Origin: an uncultured Bacteroidia bacterium
Lineage (GTDB): Bacteria; Bacteroidota; Bacteroidia; J057; CALAJH01
Direction of reading: 5' to 3'
Assembly: GCA_937922655.1 (NCBI GenBank)
Contig: CALAJH010000043.1
Coordinates: forward strand, 1-38,538
DNA length: 38,538 nucleotides
Shown here: positions 24,722-34,354 of the stretch, piece by piece
How the letters are laid out: every line of letters starts with the position of its first letter
Numbering within the stretch: position 1 is the first letter of the stretch
Notes under the pieces: model-generated
Told to the model about the DNA's origin: nothing
Database searches by the model: none
Seen by the model: the letters and a program-made list of their open reading frames with translations, nothing else
Position numbers and translations under genes: made by a program

Positions 24722-27700
24722 CTATTTCACTTGAATGTACGCGGTGCGCACCTTGAAGCCGTCGGAGTACTTCATAACGTAAAGTCCCGAAGCGTGGCGG
24801 CTCATATCGATGATGCTGCGGTTCACGCCCTCGTTGCCCATGAAGCCGTCTTCGGCGACAACCCGGCCGTTGAGGTCGGTAATGACAAAGTGTACTTTAC
24901 GCGCCTCGGGCAAACCGAAGAGCAGGGTAACCGGGCCGTCGGTGGGGTTGGGATAGACGGAGAAAATTTCTTTTTCCGCCGCCTCCAACTCTTCGCGTAC
25001 TTCTTTGGCCTCATCGGACTCTAATTTGACGCTCGACGCCGTTTGGAATATGCGTATGGCCGTGAAGGGCGTCGAAGAAGCGTCGGGGCAAAGAATGCGA
25101 ATTCGGACTTCGTAGCGCGTCGCGGGGGTCAATCCCGTCAAAGTGAACGAGCTTCCCGAAAGGTTGGAAATCGACGTCCACGTCATCGTCGAAAGCTGAC
25201 GATATTCGATTTCGTAACGGTTGGCAGGGTCGCCGTTCCACGAAATACGGGCCGAATTGGCGGTAATGCCGTTGATGAAGGTGATAATGGGCGTAGTCAA
25301 GCCTTTGACCTCCACCGTGCGCTCGACAAAACAGGATTGGTCGTTCAAACGGCGCACCTGCACTTTGTACGTTCCGGCAGGCACGTTGTTGAACACGCCC
25401 GTGGACTGCCATCCGCGATAAACGGGTCCGAAAAGACGGAACTGAACCGGGAAGTTTTGAGCGGGTGCAAAGCGGACGGTGGCAATGACGCGTCCCGACG
25501 ACGGGCCGTCGCAGGTTACGGCCTTGGAGGCGACAATCAAGTTGGGCCGGCACGAACGCAAGGTGTCTTGAATCGAGAAGGCGCCTACGCTCGTTACGCC
25601 GGAAACGGATTTGGTGAAGGGGTCGCCGCCCAAAACGGGGCCGTGCGTTTGGATTTGGTTCCAACCGCCGTCGAAATACGTGTAAATCGCCGAGGCGTTG
25701 CGGTCGAAGTCGGCCAATTCGGACGCGGCGGTGAAACCCGCGGTCATGTCGAAGTTCGAACCGCCCGGAACGTCCTCTTCAATAATCCACGTAACCTTCA
25801 CGGCGTCGGTGGCAAACTCCGTACCCGTGGAAACGTTGCCGCGCAAGGTTTCCATTGCCGAAACGGAAATGTAATCGGAGGGACCGTTGTTTTTGAGCGT
25901 CAAAGGCGTGGGGCCTTCGGCGGTGCCGAGCGGGAAGGTAACGGGGTCGGTTTCGCCCCCCGTACCCAAACATTCCATCGAAAGCTTGGCGTTTTCCAAC
26001 GTAACGACGTAGCTCTCGGGATTGACGGGGTCGATTTTTCCCCCGCACTGGATGATAACGTCGGATTCTTCGAGGTAAAGGATACCGCCGGCCATACGCA
26101 GGGTGTCGTAGACTTGGAAATTTCCAAACATGTAGACCTCGCCGCCGGGGTTGTTGATTTCCAATGCGCCCAAAACGGGATCTCCGTCGTTGATGAAAGT
26201 CAAGTCTTTATTAGCCACGGCGGTTTCGAAGAAGATGCCGCCATTGACGACGAAGAGCGTTCCGCCGGCAATGAGCGAGTCTATGCCTTCTTGGAACTTG
26301 CCCGTGCCGTCCACGTCGGGCGAAAACGAGCCGATGCAAAGCAGACTGCGATTGCCGCGCCAGCCTTCGTCGCCGGGTTCGGCGTCCACGTCTTGGCGAT
26401 ACCACGGCGAAAAGTCCACCGCGCCCACGCCTTGTTGAATTTCACCCAAAATCTCGCCTTCGGAATTCCCCCACCAGTTGAACTCGGCGTTGATTTGATT
26501 GCCCGGATCGGCGGAAAGATTTTGCAAATCCACGGGTTGGTCGCCGATGAAGTTTTCGTAGACGTTGGCCGTTCCGGGTTCATTGTCGTCGTCGTCAATC
26601 AATTGAATACCCACCGACAAATTGCCGTCGATGACGTTGCCTTTGACAAACGCTTCGGCGCCCGATATCTGAATACCGATATTGTTGTTGGAGAAGGTCG
26701 TACGGTTGTTGCGGATGTTCGCCAGCGAACCGTTGCGTACCACCACGCCCACGTCGGAACCGGCCACGGTGTTCGAGGAACCGGCTTCGTCGCCGCCGAT
26801 AAGCACGTTGGTTCCCGCGCCATCGACCAATATGCCGTACTGAGTGTTGTTGTTCATGGTGTTGCCGGACATCGTCGCGCTGGCGCCGCCTTCGATTTGC
26901 ACGCCGACGTTGCAATAAGCAAAAGTAGTGCGGTTGTTGCGGATATTGGCCAGCGAACCGTTGCGCACCACCACCCCAACGTCGCCGTCGTTGATGGTGT
27001 TGGAGGAGAACAGACCGTCGCCGCCAATGGTAACGTTCGTGCCGGGGCCGTCCACGACGATACCCGCGTTGGCGTTGGCCGAAAGCGTATTACCTTCGAT
27101 ATACACCTCCGACCCGCCTTCGACGACGATGCCGTTGGTGTTGTTGGCGAAGGTCGTGCGGTTGTTGCGGATGTTGGCCAACGAACCGTTGCGTACCACC
27201 ACGCCCGTTTGCGAACCCGAAACCGTATTCGATTCCGAATCCGAATCGCCGCCGATGGTTACCAGCGTCAGGTGGACTCCGTCGCCTTGAATCACGACGC
27301 CGGCGTTGGTGTTGCCCGTGATGACGTTGCCGGTCATCGTGGCTTGCGCGCCTTCGACAACGATGCCATTGACGTTGTTGGCGAAAGTCGTACGGTTGTT
27401 GCGAATGTTCGCCAGCGAACCATTACGAACGACTACGCCGTTTTGCGAACCCGAAATGGTATTCGACCCCGAATCGTCGGCCGCGCCGATGGTAACGTTG
27501 GTGCCTTCGCCTTCGACGACCACGCCCGTATTGGCGTTGTTGGTAAAGACGTTGCCTTCCATCGTGGCCGTCGAGCCGCCTTCGATTTGTACGCCGACGT
27601 TGTTGTTGGCGAAGGTCGTACGGTTGTTGCGGATATTGGCCAGCGAACCGTTGCGAACGACCACGCCCACGTTCGAACCCGTAATGGTGTTGGAACCCGA

Positions 27701-30700
27701 GTCGTCGTTGCCGCCGATGGTAACGTTACCCGCGTCCACGACGACGCCCGCTTGGCTGTTGTCGGTGAAAACGTTGCCTTCCATCGCGGCTTGGGCGCCC
27801 GATTCGACTTGCACGCCCACGCCGTTGTTGGCGAAGGTGGTGCGGTTGTTGCGAATGTTGGCCAACGAACCGTTGCGTACCACCACGCCCGTTTCCGAGC
27901 CCGTGATGGTGTTGGAAGCCGAGTCGTCGTCGCCGCCGATGGTAACGTTGGTTCCCGAACCTGCGATTTCAACGCCCGTCAATGCATTGTCGGTGAAAAC
28001 GTTGCCCGACATATTGACCGTCGCGGCGCCGTCCACGCGAACGCCCGTGTTGTTGTAGGCAAAAGTGGTGCGGTTGTTGCGGATATTGGCCAGCGAACCG
28101 TTGCGTACCACCACACCCACGTCGGAACCGGTAACGGTGTTGGATTCGGCGTTGGTTTCGCCGCCGATGTCCACCGTCGCGCCGTCTTCGACGACCACGC
28201 CGGCGCCGGTATTGTCGGTAAAGACGTTGCCCGTCATGTTGGCTTGGGCGTTTTGCACCAAGATACCGAATCCGTTTTCGGCAAAAGTGGTGCGGTTGTT
28301 ACGAATGTTGGCCAAAGAGCCGTTGCGAACGACCACGCCGTAGTCGGAGTCGGTAATGGTGTTGGAACCGGAGTCGTCGGCGCCGCCGATGGTTACCTGC
28401 GTTCCCGCACCGTCCACGACGACCCCTGCATTGGAGTTGCTCGTGAAAACGTTGCCTTCCATCGCGGCTTGGGCGCCCGATTCAACGCTGATGCCGACGT
28501 TGTTGTTGGCGAAGGTCGTGCGGTTGTTGCGAATGTTGGCCAAAGAGCCGTTGCGCACCACCACGCCCGTTTGCGAACCCGTAATGGTGTTCGAACCCGA
28601 ATCGTCGCCGGCGCCGATGGTAATTTCGGTGCCCGCGCCGTCGGCCACCACACCCGCCGTGGTATTGTTGGTAAAGGTGTTGCCTTCCATGTTCACCTCC
28701 GAACCCGATTGGACGACGATGCCGGTATTGTTGTTGGCGAAGGTCGTGCGGTTGTTGCGGATGTTGGCCAACGAACCGTTGCGTACCACTACGCCCGTTT
28801 GCGAACCCGTGATGGTATTGGATTGGGCGTCGTCGCCGCCGCCCAAAATCAATTCGGAGCCGTCGGTAACGATGCCGTTCTCGGCGTTGTTGGTAAAAGT
28901 GTTGGCGGTGACAATCGCGACGGCATTGCCTTCGATACTGATGCCGGTGTTGTTGTTGGCGAAGGTGGTGCGGTTGTTGCGGATGTTGGCCAGCGAACCG
29001 TTGCGCACGACCACGCCCGTTTGCGAACCCGTGATGGTGTTGGAATCGTCGGCGTTGTCGCCGCCCAAGTCAATCTCGGCAAAGTTGTCCACGACTACGC
29101 CTGCGCCGCTGTTGGCTGTAAAGGTGTTGCCCGCGATTTCGGCGTAAGCGTCCATTTCGACGCGGATGCCCGTGCCGTTGTTGGAAAAGGTCGTACGGTT
29201 GTTACGGATGTTGGCCAACGAACCGTTGCGCACGACCACGCCCGTTTGCGAACCCGAAATGTCGTTGCTGTCGTCGGGGCTGTTGCCGCCGATGGTCGCC
29301 TGACCTTGGTCGGCGCCGTGGTTGTCGACCACAATACCCGTCGAGGTATTGTTGGTGAAGGTATTGGCCGCGATGTTGGCGTTGCCGCCGCGCACGTAGA
29401 CGGCGGTGTCGTTGTTGGCAAAAGTCGTACGGTTGTTGCGGATGTTGGCCAGCGAACCATTGACCACCACGCCTACGCGGTTGTCGTGGAAATCGTTGGA
29501 TTTGTCGGGCGTATCGCCGCCGATGGTCGTTTGAATTTCGCCGTCGATATCGGTGCCGTTGGAATAAATACCCCACGTGAATCCGGAAAATTCGTTGTTT
29601 TCCAACGTGGCGTAGTTGTCGCCGTCTTCGCCGCCAAGATAACTTCCGTTATCGGAAATAAACAAGCCGGTGCCTTGCCCGAGGTTGTCGTAGTTGAGGG
29701 TGGGGTCTTTTTCGGTGGCAACGAACGTGTTTTCTTTCAAAACCACGGGGTCGTCTTCGGTACCGTTGTTGACCATCCACATGCCCGATTCTTTTCCGCT
29801 CGTTTCGATGGTGTTGTTTTCCACAAGCACGCCTTCGGATTTGGCCACTTCCAGACCCACGCCTTTTCCTTCGCCGAAATAAAGATTGGGGTTGTCGGAA
29901 TCGACTTTAATGACGTTGGGTTTGTCTTGGGAACCAATCGAGGAGCCGGAGGGCAGGTTGAAGAGCACGATGCCGGCTTTGCCTACGCCTTCGATTTCAT
30001 TGCCCTCGATGACGACTAAACCGCCGTTCAACAGCGCATCGACAAGTATGCCGTAGGCTTCAATGTATTTAACGACGTTGTCTTCGAGTTCAAGGCCGTT
30101 AAGCGTGGCGTTGCCGTCGAGCTTGATGCCCGTGCCGACCAATTCCACGGTGTTGTTGTTTATCGTCGAAGACGGGGCGTTGCTGTAAATGCCGTAGGCG
30201 TATTCAAAGAACAGCCCGTCGGCACGCAAACAGGCGTTGGCCACGTAGGAGTTTTGCACGACGTTGTTTTCGCCCGCGTCGTAAATCATGATACCCGTGC
30301 CGTAGATGTTTTCGACCCTGACGTTTTCGAGTTTGATTTGTTCGTACAACACGGATTGGGTGAAATCGGTGATGATACCGACGCCGAAACGATATTTGCA
30401 ATCGCGATCGTCGTTGGGGTCGCCGTCAATGACAACGTCTTTGAGGGTAACGTCGTCGGAGGCGATGACGATACCGTGAATGAAATCGTAGTTGGCGTCG
30501 TCGAGATAGGTGGCGGGATTGGAGGGGTCGTAGGTGTTTTCAACGAGGGGGAGGTCGGGGTCGGGAACCAACACCGAGCCGGGGCCGCCAATGATGGTAA
30601 TGGGTTTGTCGATATAAACGTCGCCGATATAATAAATTTCGTTGTCGTTTAAGTATATCGTGTCTCCGGGGTTGGAAACCTCGACGATATCCTGCAATTT

Positions 30701-33700
30701 ATTGACAAAGGCTTGGCAGTCGGAAGCGCCTTGAAAACCGGGGTCGGCGGAAAGGTCGGCGCCGGAAAGTTTGTAGGTAACGATTTTGACCGTTCCCAGC
30801 ACGTCGTTGGCGGGAACGGGAATGCCCGTCGTTCCCCAGTAATCGCAAACGGATTGAAGGTTGCCCGCTCCGTCGGGACTGTTTTCGATTTTCACGCCGT
30901 CGCCGATGGATTGCAGATTGTTGTCCTGCAAATTGACGGCGGTGTTGGCGGGAAGGTTGCCCGCACGCAGTGCGCGTCCGAAACCGATGAGATGGTTGTT
31001 GCGAATCAGAACGTCGCCGGCGAGGGGAGCGGATGCGGGGTCGATTTTTATGGCGGCCTCGTTGTTGGCATTGTTGGAACCGGTAACGTCGTTGTTTTCG
31101 ACGACAACGTTGTCGGTTTTGGCGCCGATTAAAACAATCCCCGAAGCGGAGCTTGAAGGAGCCAGCACGAAAATTTGATTGCCCGCGATATAATTTTGGA
31201 CGTTGCCGTTCGGGGCGGAAACATTGTCAAAGACAAGCGCCCCACCCAAATCGCTAGCGTAAAAATCAAAGTTAAACGTATTGTCGGAAACGTTGACGCC
31301 GCTTATCGACGAATAAGCCGCGTTGTCGTAATCCTTGACCCATACCCCCGTTCCCGCATAGCCGGTAACGTTATTGCCGGCGATGTTTACATCGGCGACC
31401 GTGGCGGTATCGTTGCCTGAGCCATAAGCCACCACCGCCACGGCGGTAACGTTCGGTTGGTTGCCAAGGGTAATTTGGTTGTTGGCAACGGAGATGTCGG
31501 AGACGATGCCGGTAGCCATGCCCGTCAAATCCGCGCCGACGCGAACGACGTCGGTATTAGCGTAAAGCATGGAAATCGTATTGTTCAATACCGCCACGTT
31601 CGAGGCGTTGGTCAAATCGATAATCGCGCCTCCACCCGACGAACCCACGTTCTCAAACACGCAAGAAACAACGGCCGCGCTCGAAGGCGTTACCGCATTT
31701 GCAATGTCGATTACCGAGACGGGATAATCCAAGAATTTAAGGTTTTCAAACGACACCTTGTCCGCTCCGGATTGCAATAGAAACGCGGTACCGGCGCTTG
31801 AAGAACTCAGCACGGGCATGAGGCCGGGATCGGCGGTCGGTACGCCGGAAGCATCGGTGCCGACAACGTCCACGGAAACGCCAACTTGCACGCCTTCGGG
31901 GGTATATTCACCGTCGGTGTCGGCGGGATTTTCCTTGCCCATGGCGTAAATGGTCGCACCCGATGGAGCGTTACTTACGGCGTCGGCAAAGTTGTCGAAA
32001 GCGTTCACGTCGTAAGCGATGGCAAAGGGATACAAACCGGCAAAAACGGGGTCGTTGAAGTTATCGATGTCGTTCTGGCTCGTCCAACGGTTGTTTACGA
32101 AAATAATCGAATCGACGTACTCTTGTTCAGGAATAACGTTGGAATACTTAAGGTTGTCCAAAAACATTTCCAGAGAACCGACGTTATTTTGTTGTCCCCG
32201 AAACTCGAAGGCGTCCATGAACGCATTGGCGGAAAACCCGCCGGGCACAAAGTTGTTCAGAAAAACGTCGTCAATCCACAAATCCCACGTTCCGGCGGCA
32301 ACGGTGCGTTTGGCGCCCGTAGAGTGCTCGTAAGTAATGGGATAGGTGCGGTTGTTGGAAAATATTTCAACCGTAACGCCGGCGGTGCGCCCAATAGTGA
32401 CGGTAGTAAAGTTCTGCCATGCGTTTCCGCTAAGATATTCCAAGCCGGCCGAGGAAGATCCGTCGAACACCCAACGCAAACCGGCAAACACATCGTCGGT
32501 ATCGAGCGCATCCTCGCCGGCAAAGAAGGTGTTTCCCGAGCCTTGAATAAAGTACCATTCGCCCGTACCGCCGCTTCGGGCGTCAAAAGCGACGTCGAAT
32601 TTGGCATAGAATTCTTTACCGTCGTCGTAACCGCGCGTGGTGAATTTGACGGGAGCGGCGCCGGAAGGAGCTTCGCCGCGCAATAGGGAATACTCGCCGA
32701 TGTTAACCGACGGCTGGGGGGCAATCGTCCATTCGCCGCCGGAACCGGGAATGTAAACCGACGCCACCCCGCCGCCGGCCAACGGCTGGGCGACAAACGA
32801 AGTATTAATCCCCGGACCCAAATAATCAATGTCGCATTTGCCAAAGTTTTGTTTCCACAGCGGGCCGGGAACGCCAAAGTTCTTATTGACGTGGCTGGAA
32901 ATGGCAAGATCGACGTCGTCGGCGCCGATGGACGCGTGCAAAACAGTGTCGAAAACGTCGATACTCGCCGAACCGATGCCGCGTACAAATATCGGCTGAT
33001 TGAGCTTGCCTTCTACGTCGGGCGAAAAAGAAACAGTGCCGGCCCAAGAAGAACCGTCGCCGGAAACTTCAAAATCCGAGGTGGCAACGCCAACCGAAAC
33101 CGCGTTTGTAAGCGCCGAACCTCTTAGAGTATAGTTAACGGCCTCGGTATATTGGCCGACGTCGTCGGCACAAAGGGTTTTGAGCGCCGAAACGGAAGTT
33201 TCAAGGTAAGGGAGCTCGTCCAAAATGAAATTGCCGTAATCGACAAAACCAAGTAGAAGCGAGTTGTCGGAACCGATGTTGTCGTAGCCCCGGAATTCCC
33301 ATGCATTAATAACGTTGCCCGAAGCAAGACCGCCGGCATTAAAAGTGCCGTACATAAAGTTGTCTATCCAAATCTGGTAGCTGCCCGGAGCAATCAAATA
33401 ATACTCCCCGTCGGGACCTTCATAGCGATAGGTAACGTCGTCGTTGTTGCCATAGACGCGAAGGACATAGATCGTACTGGGAACGACGGAGATGCCGGTG
33501 GAACCCCATGTGTTGCCCTGCAAAGCATCGATGGAAACGGAGCCGTTGTTGTAATAATTAAAGCGAAGGCCGGAAAAAACGTCGGCGTCGGAGACGGTCG
33601 CCGTACCGACGTCGAAAGTCGTGCCCGAACCGATGAGCAGTTCCCAAGTGGCGGATTCGCCGAAGTCGGAGGAGAACCACATCGGCACGGCGAAATGAAA

Positions 33701-34048
33701 CCGAGACTTTCCCGAAAAACCGGTTACGCCGTACTCGGTGGCGGCGTCCGAATCTCCGCTAGAGGGTTTGCCGATGAGGTGCGGCGGCGGGGTAAAGCCC
33801 GGCACCGCCAAGGTGGATACCGTCCAACTCCCCGGCAACGAGCCGTTGTACAAATACGCCGTGCCGCCGTTCACCGGGGGAAAGACGCTCGTCGAAAGAG
33901 TGGTCAAATTCGTCCCGGACGTATTGAACACCGACGGCGAATTAGGGTATACCACCTTCCACGAACCTTGCGCTCTGGCCTGAAAAACGGCGAAAAGCAT
34001 CGCCGCCGGCAAGAACGCCCAAATTTTTCGTAGCCTACTTTTCATCAT
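24722..34048 (-). CDS. Giant T9SS-secreted parallel beta-helix surface protein with 13 internal repeats
   Basis: The product is about 3,108 residues. A signal peptide (MMKSRLRKIWAFLPAAMLF…ARAQ) is followed by two related N-terminal modules (about 30-650) with paired features: ADVFSGLRF/DDVFAGLRW, YQIWIDNFMYGTF/WDLWIDDVFLNNF, and AWEFRGYDN/AFEFRGQQN. A first beta-helix-like region (about 750-1110) precedes a second (about 1115-2530), which includes 13 units of roughly 75 residues, each with NGSLANIRNNRTTF. It closes with FNWWGNSEGE. Then come non-helical domains (about 2560-2900), a fibronectin type III domain (about 2910-3000, ITANSARISW to ATRYEVRIRI) and a type A T9SS sorting domain (about 3025-3108, FSVYPNPTDGPVTLLF to YVMKYSDGFKV). 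T9SS exports and anchors such proteins at the cell surface. An adhesin or polymer-binding role is plausible but unproven. ATG 34048 or 34045 fits the signal peptide. Confidence 0.93.
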   Translation of the reverse strand: MMKSRLRKIWAFLPAAMLFAVFQARAQGSWKVVYPNSPSVFNTSGTNLTTLSTSVFPPVNGGTAYLYNGSLPGSWTVSTLAVPGFTPPPHLIGKPSSGDSDAATEYGVTGFSGKSRFHFAVPMWFSSDFGESATWELLIGSGTTFDVGTATVSDADVFSGLRFNYYNNGSVSIDALQGNTWGSTGISVVPSTIYVLRVYGNNDDVTYRYEGPDGEYYLIAPGSYQIWIDNFMYGTFNAGGLASGNVINAWEFRGYDNIGSDNSLLLGFVDYGNFILDELPYLETSVSALKTLCADDVGQYTEAVNYTLRGSALTNAVSVGVATSDFEVSGDGSSWAGTVSFSPDVEGKLNQPIFVRGIGSASIDVFDTVLHASIGADDVDLAISSHVNKNFGVPGPLWKQNFGKCDIDYLGPGINTSFVAQPLAGGGVASVYIPGSGGEWTIAPQPSVNIGEYSLLRGEAPSGAAPVKFTTRGYDDGKEFYAKFDVAFDARSGGTGEWYFIQGSGNTFFAGEDALDTDDVFAGLRWVFDGSSSAGLEYLSGNAWQNFTTVTIGRTAGVTVEIFSNNRTYPITYEHSTGAKRTVAAGTWDLWIDDVFLNNFVPGGFSANAFMDAFEFRGQQNNVGSLEMFLDNLKYSNVIPEQEYVDSIIFVNNRWTSQNDIDNFNDPVFAGLYPFAIAYDVNAFDNFADAVSNAPSGATIYAMGKENPADTDGEYTPEGVQVGVSVDVVGTDASGVPTADPGLMPVLSSSSAGTAFLLQSGADKVSFENLKFLDYPVSVIDIANAVTPSSAAVVSCVFENVGSSGGGAIIDLTNASNVAVLNNTISMLYANTDVVRVGADLTGMATGIVSDISVANNQITLGNQPNVTAVAVVAYGSGNDTATVADVNIAGNNVTGYAGTGVWVKDYDNAAYSSISGVNVSDNTFNFDFYASDLGGALVFDNVSAPNGNVQNYIAGNQIFVLAPSSSASGIVLIGAKTDNVVVENNDVTGSNNANNEAAIKIDPASAPLAGDVLIRNNHLIGFGRALRAGNLPANTAVNLQDNNLQSIGDGVKIENSPDGAGNLQSVCDYWGTTGIPVPANDVLGTVKIVTYKLSGADLSADPGFQGASDCQAFVNKLQDIVEVSNPGDTIYLNDNEIYYIGDVYIDKPITIIGGPGSVLVPDPDLPLVENTYDPSNPATYLDDANYDFIHGIVIASDDVTLKDVVIDGDPNDDRDCKYRFGVGIITDFTQSVLYEQIKLENVRVENIYGTGIMIYDAGENNVVQNSYVANACLRADGLFFEYAYGIYSNAPSSTINNNTVELVGTGIKLDGNATLNGLELEDNVVKYIEAYGILVDALLNGGLVVIEGNEIEGVGKAGIVLFNLPSGSSIGSQDKPNVIKVDSDNPNLYFGEGKGVGLEVAKSEGVLVENNTIETSGKESGMWMVNNGTEDDPVVLKENTFVATEKDPTLNYDNLGQGTGLFISDNGSYLGGEDGDNYATLENNEFSGFTWGIYSNGTDIDGEIQTTIGGDTPDKSNDFHDNRVGVVVNGSLANIRNNRTTFANNDTAVYVRGGNANIAANTFTNNTSTGIVVDNHGADQGQATIGGNSPDDSNDISGSQTGVVVRNGSLANIRNNRTTFSNNGTGIRVEMDAYAEIAGNTFTANSGAGVVVDNFAEIDLGGDNADDSNTITGSQTGVVVRNGSLANIRNNRTTFANNNTGISIEGNAVAIVTANTFTNNAENGIVTDGSELILGGGDDAQSNTITGSQTGVVVRNGSLANIRNNRTTFANNNTGIVVQSGSEVNMEGNTFTNNTTAGVVADGAGTEITIGAGDDSGSNTITGSQTGVVVRNGSLANIRNNRTTFANNNVGISVESGAQAAMEGNVFTSNSNAGVVVDGAGTQVTIGGADDSGSNTITDSDYGVVVRNGSLANIRNNRTTFAENGFGILVQNAQANMTGNVFTDNTGAGVVVEDGATVDIGGETNAESNTVTGSDVGVVVRNGSLANIRNNRTTFAYNNTGVRVDGAATVNMSGNVFTDNALTGVEIAGSGTNVTIGGDDDSASNTITGSETGVVVRNGSLANIRNNRTTFANNGVGVQVESGAQAAMEGNVFTDNSQAGVVVDAGNVTIGGNDDSGSNTITGSNVGVVVRNGSLANIRNNRTTFANNNVGVQIEGGSTATMEGNVFTNNANTGVVVEGEGTNVTIGAADDSGSNTISGSQNGVVVRNGSLANIRNNRTTFANNVNGIVVEGAQATMTGNVITGNTNAGVVIQGDGVHLTLVTIGGDSDSESNTVSGSQTGVVVRNGSLANIRNNRTTFANNTNGIVVEGGSEVYIEGNTLSANANAGIVVDGPGTNVTIGGDGLFSSNTINDGDVGVVVRNGSLANIRNNRTTFAYCNVGVQIEGGASATMSGNTMNNNTQYGILVDGAGTNVLIGGDEAGSSNTVAGSDVGVVVRNGSLANIRNNRTTFSNNNIGIQISGAEAFVKGNVIDGNLSVGIQLIDDDDNEPGTANVYENFIGDQPVDLQNLSADPGNQINAEFNWWGNSEGEILGEIQQGVGAVDFSPWYRQDVDAEPGDEGWRGNRSLLCIGSFSPDVDGTGKFQEGIDSLIAGGTLFVVNGGIFFETAVANKDLTFINDGDPVLGALEINNPGGEVYMFGNFQVYDTLRMAGGILYLEESDVIIQCGGKIDPVNPESYVVTLENAKLSMECLGTGGETDPVTFPLGTAEGPTPLTLKNNGPSDYISVSAMETLRGNVSTGTEFATDAVKVTWIIEEDVPGGSNFDMTAGFTAASELADFDRNASAIYTYFDGGWNQIQTHGPVLGGDPFTKSVSGVTSVGAFSIQDTLRSCRPNLIVASKAVTCDGPSSGRVIATVRFAPAQNFPVQFRLFGPVYRGWQSTGVFNNVPAGTYKVQVRRLNDQSCFVERTVEVKGLTTPIITFINGITANSARISWNGDPANRYEIEYRQLSTMTWTSISNLSGSSFTLTGLTPATRYEVRIRILCPDASSTPFTAIRIFQTASSVKLESDEAKEVREELEAAEKEIFSVYPNPTDGPVTLLFGLPEARKVHFVITDLNGRVVAEDGFMGNEGVNRSIIDMSRHASGLYVMKYSDGFKVRTAYIQVK
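26693..29461 (-). repeat. 13 tandem beta-helix units of about 225 bp with an invariant 14-residue block
   Basis: The range runs from the last invariant block (26693-26734) to the first (29420-29461). Each unit encodes GVVV(R)NGSLANIRNNRTTF, then variable (A/S)-N-N-like turns, a GN-x-F/I-T-x-N turn, (A/T)GVVV-type strands, an (I)GG-x-DDS-like loop, and SNTITGSQT or a variant. The 14-residue block is unchanged in all 13 units, while codons vary (Phe as TTT or TTC, Arg as CGT, CGC or CGG, Ile as ATT or ATC). Unit length varies from about 72 to 78 residues. The first unit lacks the Arg before NGS. Confidence 0.93.
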
Positions 34049-34354
34049 TGTTATCTTAATTGCCAATTTTTTTGATAAACGAATGCAAGAATGCGCTCCC
34101 AAATTTTCGGACGAAATAAAAATTTGAAACTTGGGAATAAGCAAAATTACAACATTTTCCCCGAAGGCCGCATAGACTTTAAGACGAACGTGTAAAAAAC
34201 GCCGATAAACGCAAATAAATTTTTTTTTCATCCTATTTTCAAGGGGACAAACGTACGTTTTTAACCGACCAACAAAAGGCACGATTTTTGGGGGAAAATT
34301 ATGTACGGCACGTTAAAATCGGCGCCCAACAAATTTACGTAACTTTGCGTCCGG
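34049..34354. other. Divergent intergenic region between the giant protein and the repeat-protein operon
   Basis: This 306-bp AT-rich gap holds the regulatory DNA for both directions. Minus strand: a TAATTTTG box (34142-34149) about 94 bp before the start. Plus strand: TAACTTTG (34340-34347) lies only 8 bp before the ATG at 34355. If that box were used, the plus-strand message would be nearly leaderless; no matching -33 element is seen. I find no further gene. Confidence 0.5.
34142..34149 (-). promoter_or_regulatory. Candidate -7 element of the giant surface-protein gene
   Basis: The minus strand reads TAATTTTG, an exact TAnnTTTG match, predicting a leader of about 85-90 nt. The -33 element is poor (TGCG at the expected spacing). 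Confidence 0.4.

Follow-up and report, generated by a model that had tools for sequence, protein, structure and literature searches.

Right-handed beta-helix repeat proteins (PF13229; NosD, PF05048) share a common fold with Asn and Gly at the coil turns, and the repeats of solenoids are usually either alike because they are young or drifting everywhere except in the core. The window analysed here, the whole 38,538-nucleotide contig CALAJH010000043.1 of an uncultured Bacteroidia bacterium, encodes a giant protein with a central array of 13 beta-helix units that is a known fold in an unusual variant: strong hidden Markov model (HMM) matches and model Z scores of 24-31 connect it with the beta-helix repeat proteins, whereas every third coil of the array is invariant, its presumed surface included, and charge is segregated between the coils. 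Recurrent 8-mers (present more than two times) were absent from the large open frames of 18 Beta_helix loci in relatives, a small comparison sample chosen by HMM score, and from three other large open frames of this genome.

With the Bacteroidota type IX secretion cargo that carries a Por_Secre_tail, the giant protein has in common the sorting domain, a signal-peptide-like N-terminus (MMKSRLRKIWAFLPAAMLFAVFQARAQG) and the presence of sprA; it differs from such cargo by the array of frozen coils, for which searches of 295 class and 395 phylum genomes gave no comparable match. The closest precedent that has been worked out is that of the ice nucleation proteins, beta-solenoids with acidic coils and Arg coils: the outward Arg, Lys and His residues in the R-coils of PbINP promote multimers, and a change from Arg to Lys causes no loss there (PMC10727499). 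In contrast, the coils of the present array comprise 22-32 residues, with an Arg coil at each third turn and another motif; the 16-residue AGYGSTxT coils of the ice nucleation proteins are absent (0 AGYGSTxT), and no homology is claimed.

The alginate epimerases AlgG and AlgE were among the best fold matches (Z 28-30, root-mean-square deviation of ~2 Å over ~260 residues), but at ~19% identity; we know of no array of identical coils in these enzymes, and an assignment as mannuronan C5-epimerase was rejected as the DPHD active-site motif is missing (0 in the giant protein). Likewise discarded were a NosD copper-maturation protein (TIGR04247, 54 bits versus 300) and an RTX calcium beta-roll (0 GGxGxD nonapeptides in the giant protein, family absent from the Pfam scan).

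Constancy of the repeated block

The 14-residue block NGSLANIRNNRTTF is present in 13 exact copies at 26693-29461 on the minus strand, one every 74-78 residues. The original prediction had claimed this identity, and the frozen stretch proved to be even longer, comprising 19 residues (GVVVRNGSLANIRNNRTTF) in units 2-13, with unit 1 lacking the Arg that precedes NGS. Elsewhere in the giant protein the best near-match reached only 6 of the 14 residues; no unit-like match was found in the remainder of the 3.58 Mb, 84-contig genome, NGSLANIRNNRTTF being confined to the array.

As had also been claimed, the identity exists at the protein level with differing codons. Twelve different DNA versions of the block occur among the 13 copies; pairwise comparison of the units (Nei-Gojobori) gave a nonsynonymous divergence (dN) of 0 and a synonymous divergence (dS) of 0.69-0.75 in the block, compared with 0.45 and 0.80, respectively, outside it (block/outside ratio of synonymous divergence 0.94, bootstrap 0.71-1.23). 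The minimum numbers of nonsynonymous and synonymous changes amounted to 0:21 in the block and 139:78 outside (Fisher P = 2.5e-9, a value that is indicative only, as minimum changes were counted per column and the units are related). Codon mismatch at identical residues was 0.37 in the block and 0.35 outside, or 0.92 versus 0.77 relative to random use of the array's own codons; as it is not lowered in the block, there is no sign of DNA homogenisation. Given a dN of 0 at a dS equal to that of the rest of the unit, the sequence data provide good support for selection on the protein as the force that keeps the block identical. The outcome that the original prediction had named as refuting it, almost no synonymous variation in the block, was not seen.

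The opposite explanation, namely that DNA-level homogenisation (gene conversion or recent block copying) generated the identity as a by-product, can draw on the fact that the units are tandem duplicates and that the block DNA distance does not track the distance outside (Mantel r 0.09). However, the synonymous distance outside the block is likewise untracked (r 0.07), so that the missing correlation is attributable to synonymous saturation, whereas the amino-acid distance outside rises with unit separation (Mantel r 0.57), as expected from old tandem duplication. Together with the many DNA versions, the near-saturated synonymous divergence of the block, which contradicts gene conversion, renders homogenisation highly improbable. 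The two neighbouring Asn of IRNNR are encoded by AAC AAC throughout the 13 copies, whereas the block varies at almost all of its other codons; codon bias or a local nucleotide constraint is perhaps the cause.

A search for the same block in other genomes, as the original prediction had proposed, yielded none. By peptide pattern, there was no match in a collection with one genome for each of 84,980 species, from which the own or very near genomes were perhaps left out, and none in viral contigs; nor did the block turn up in samples of the order (22 genomes), the class (295) and the phylum (395), the last giving one weak 50-residue match to an ordinary 518-residue open frame. No sequence match was present in the PDB, and the flanking beta-helix region had no relative among the class genomes. 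The only plasmid hit, from Deinococcus (27% identity), was rejected as an ordinary beta-helix protein with no recurring 7-mer. The array thus seems private to the lineage, as giant surface proteins often are.

Fold, placement and charge of the frozen coil

The beta-helix fold that had been predicted was borne out: Pfam matches over the array were to Beta_helix and NosD (PF13229 with 267.5 bits versus 25.9, in 9 stretches), and an AlphaFold model of units 5-8, with the other array units as alignment, was obtained with high scores (predicted local distance difference test, pLDDT, 92.7; predicted template modelling score, pTM, 0.90). In this four-unit model, each unit contributes three coils to a right-handed parallel beta-helix. 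Fold comparison retrieved AlgG, AlgE, NosD, pertactin and phage-tail beta-helices, a likeness to solved structures that shows the fold and not the function. The whole array modelled as a single 1,081-residue chain without alignment reached a low-confidence pLDDT of 60 and was not relied on.

Here the block, NNRT loop included, makes up nearly one whole coil. Counted from the first Gly of a unit, its strands (residues 9-13 and 18-20) have the same offset in each of the four; the blocks are therefore in register, recurring at every third coil, in line with the predicted invariant ladder. Based on the usual beta-helix rise of 4.8 Å per coil, the blocks would be located on the same side of the rod, ~14.4 Å apart. 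Seven positions of the frozen coil (3, 5, 9, 11, 13, 18 and 20) are presumed from strand alternation to point outward. Their mean entropy is 0.09 bits, compared with 1.93 and 1.35 bits at the presumed outward positions of the two remaining coils, whose core positions gave 1.06 and 1.11 bits; the presumed surface residues of the frozen coil are hence more conserved than the core of its neighbours. Within the frozen coil, core and presumed surface are equally invariant, which is not the case in the remaining two.

The charge census is equally uneven. The blocks have 38 Arg, lack Lys as well as Asp and Glu, and carry thereby 38 of the 42 Arg/Lys residues of the array; outside the blocks there are 3 Arg, 1 Lys and 83 Asp/Glu, all acidic residues being placed in the other coils. 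Even with the blocks included, the array has a net charge of -42 over 964 residues. The original prediction had not mentioned that the block corresponds to essentially an entire coil, nor that the basic residues of the array are almost all found there. The block Arg is never replaced by Lys, which hints at a geometry-specific contact, e.g. bidentate binding of carboxylate, sulfate or phosphate. Cationic coils would accordingly be lined up ~14 Å apart along an acidic rod that is probably secreted by the type IX system.

Organization of the giant protein and its gene surroundings

The open reading frame (ORF) of the giant protein extends over 24722..34282 on the minus strand, with a probable ATG start at 34048 (see Table 1). 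Its C-terminal sorting tail and the SprA translocon encoded on contig C57 of the genome (TIGR04189, 2180.6 bits versus 200) support an assignment as type IX secretion cargo, which may be cell-surface bound or secreted. With regard to a role as fibrillar adhesin, the Pfam scan of the giant protein revealed no recognised adhesive domain. The N-terminal part (30743-34000, minus strand) seemingly contains two copies of a beta-rich domain of ~250 residues without Pfam name; one distant relative of this part was found, and the second copy matches an open frame in locus L090 with 31% identity.

Table 1. Positions of the giant-protein gene, its domains and the frozen blocks in the window.
Feature	Position	Strand	Remarks
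Giant-protein gene	24722..34048	minus	3,108 residues from likely ATG; ORF and translation
Type IX secretion sorting domain (Por_Secre_tail), C-terminal	24758..24958	minus	PF18962, 36.8 bits vs cut-off 27
Fibronectin type III domain	25082..25276	minus	PF00041, 32.6 bits vs cut-off 25
Array, 13 three-coil units with frozen coil	26693..29476	minus	
Units 5-8, stretch modelled by AlphaFold	27668..28567	minus	
Ordinary beta-helix coils upstream of array	29483..30742	minus	ORF residues 1181-1600; Pfam Beta_helix matches
Block 1	29420..29461	minus	Without Arg before NGS
Block 2	29186..29227	minus	
Block 3	28961..29002	minus	
Block 4	28739..28780	minus	
Block 5	28511..28552	minus	
Block 6	28283..28324	minus	
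Block 7	28061..28102	minus	
Block 8	27833..27874	minus	
Block 9	27611..27652	minus	
Block 10	27383..27424	minus	
Block 11	27149..27190	minus	
Block 12	26921..26962	minus	
Block 13	26693..26734	minus	

An antisense open frame of 1,658 residues (25043-30019, plus strand) lies opposite the array and looks like a codon-composition shadow of the repeat, not like a gene. The gene neighbours have housekeeping functions (acyl-CoA carboxylase subunit, PheS, RecG, cytochrome oxidase, M50 protease and HtrA-like protease) and gave no clue to a partner. By its PheS matches the genome belongs to the Bacteroidota, the best of them, from an uncultured Bacteroidetes bacterium, sharing only 58% identity.

Further beta-helix proteins are encoded elsewhere in the genome. 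A second giant one of 2,763 residues (contig C15, locus L038 1022-9313) has a sorting-tail-like end and several long repeats that start near GR(I/V)QEAV, but no frozen block; two similar beta-helix open frames of 409-455 residues (contigs C28 and C41, loci L016 and L018) have stretches in common, for instance NGAYGLYPVSC and ASDAGIYVGQ; and a NosD-like protein (contig C1:76107-76574, L015) suggests the presence of a nitrous oxide reductase cluster.

Possible functions of the frozen coil

The reading that we favour, with moderate confidence, is that an acidic partner, either a polymer or neighbouring copies of the protein, docks repeatedly to the surface provided by the frozen coils. The giant protein would be exported by type IX secretion to the cell surface or the medium, where its middle part, a rod in which 13 three-coil units build a right-handed parallel beta-helix, would expose on one side a strip of Arg, Asn and Thr with sites ~14 Å apart over ~19 nm. 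An identical acidic partner may dock to this strip at each step, either an anionic surface polymer (exopolysaccharide or lipopolysaccharide) or, as is thought for the Arg coils of ice nucleation proteins, the acidic coils of further copies next to it. Multivalency is proposed as the reason why every block was kept identical while the spacer coils drifted. In a more specific form, advanced only tentatively, the array would represent an interspersed arginine-coil solenoid, the invariant cationic coil at each third turn serving as a molecular ruler for the docking of an anionic polymer with a periodic structure, or else joining copies zipper-like into cell-surface fibres or sheets; in the literature searched, no such arrangement was found described.

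Several points weigh against a docking function. The side-chain directions were derived from strand alternation and not from coordinates; no ortholog was found, so that conservation is visible only among the repeats of one protein; and, as far as sequence can tell, polymer binding and self-assembly would fit alike. In addition, part of the Arg residues may find their counter-charges within the rod, as the column at position 5 reads Arg, acid, acid across the three coils: Arg in 12/12 units, followed one coil on mostly by Glu, Gln or Asp, and two coils on by Asp or Glu.

This column also speaks for the main rival, which we consider somewhat unlikely, namely that the frozen coil is a structural staple that adds stability, its Arg residues forming bridges to acidic side chains in the adjacent coils on either side. 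Glu 29 and Asp 52 would be the counterparts of Arg 5, and the Asp-rich loop one coil earlier may serve Arg 16; the acidic rod would thereby be neutralised, in keeping with the strongly acidic character of the remaining array, and the NNRT loop would pack in one fixed way. However, the staple fits one of the three Arg well and the others less, since their presumed partners are not constant: opposite Arg 13 there is Ala, Thr, Glu, Ser or Lys, and opposite Arg 16 a loop of Asp, Ser, Asn, Ala, Leu and Pro. The lack of any Arg to Lys exchange also speaks against it, and it would leave unexplained why Asn 11, Leu 9, Ser 8 and Thr 17-18 do not vary.

The original prediction had proposed a repeating ligand, glycan or metal site; a ladder for a ligand or partner is plausible, whereas its other two parts did not hold and are very improbable. 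Each block does contain two N-x-S/T triplets (NGS and NRT), but such triplets are common anyway in the Asn/Thr-rich array (44), and an STT3/PglB-type oligosaccharyltransferase was unmatched in the genome, recorded as 100% complete, in a search that finds archaeal controls. Bacteroidota use Asp-Ser/Thr O-glycosylation, and that motif is absent from the block. Nor does the block have the acidic residue at -2 of the bacterial sequon, D/E-X-N-X-S/T (PMC12871550). A metal site was likewise rejected, Asp, Glu, His and Cys, the usual ligands, all being absent from the block. No more credible is an array of active sites in which each frozen coil would supply catalytic residues for a polysaccharide substrate, like the beta-helix lyases and epimerases with their single site: the closest solved folds include AlgG, AlgE and polysaccharide lyases, but fold similarity is no proof of function, DPHD is absent, and thirteen identical sites 14 Å apart, free of acid and His, would to our knowledge be unprecedented for an enzyme.

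What distinguishes the array is that a third of the coils stayed unchanged, even at the presumed surface, over a time sufficient to bring their synonymous sites near saturation, and that positive and negative charge are almost completely separated between the coils. If the docking reading is true, the giant protein would be a clean natural case of a beta-helix rod with an evolved repeating binding surface at a 14 Å step.
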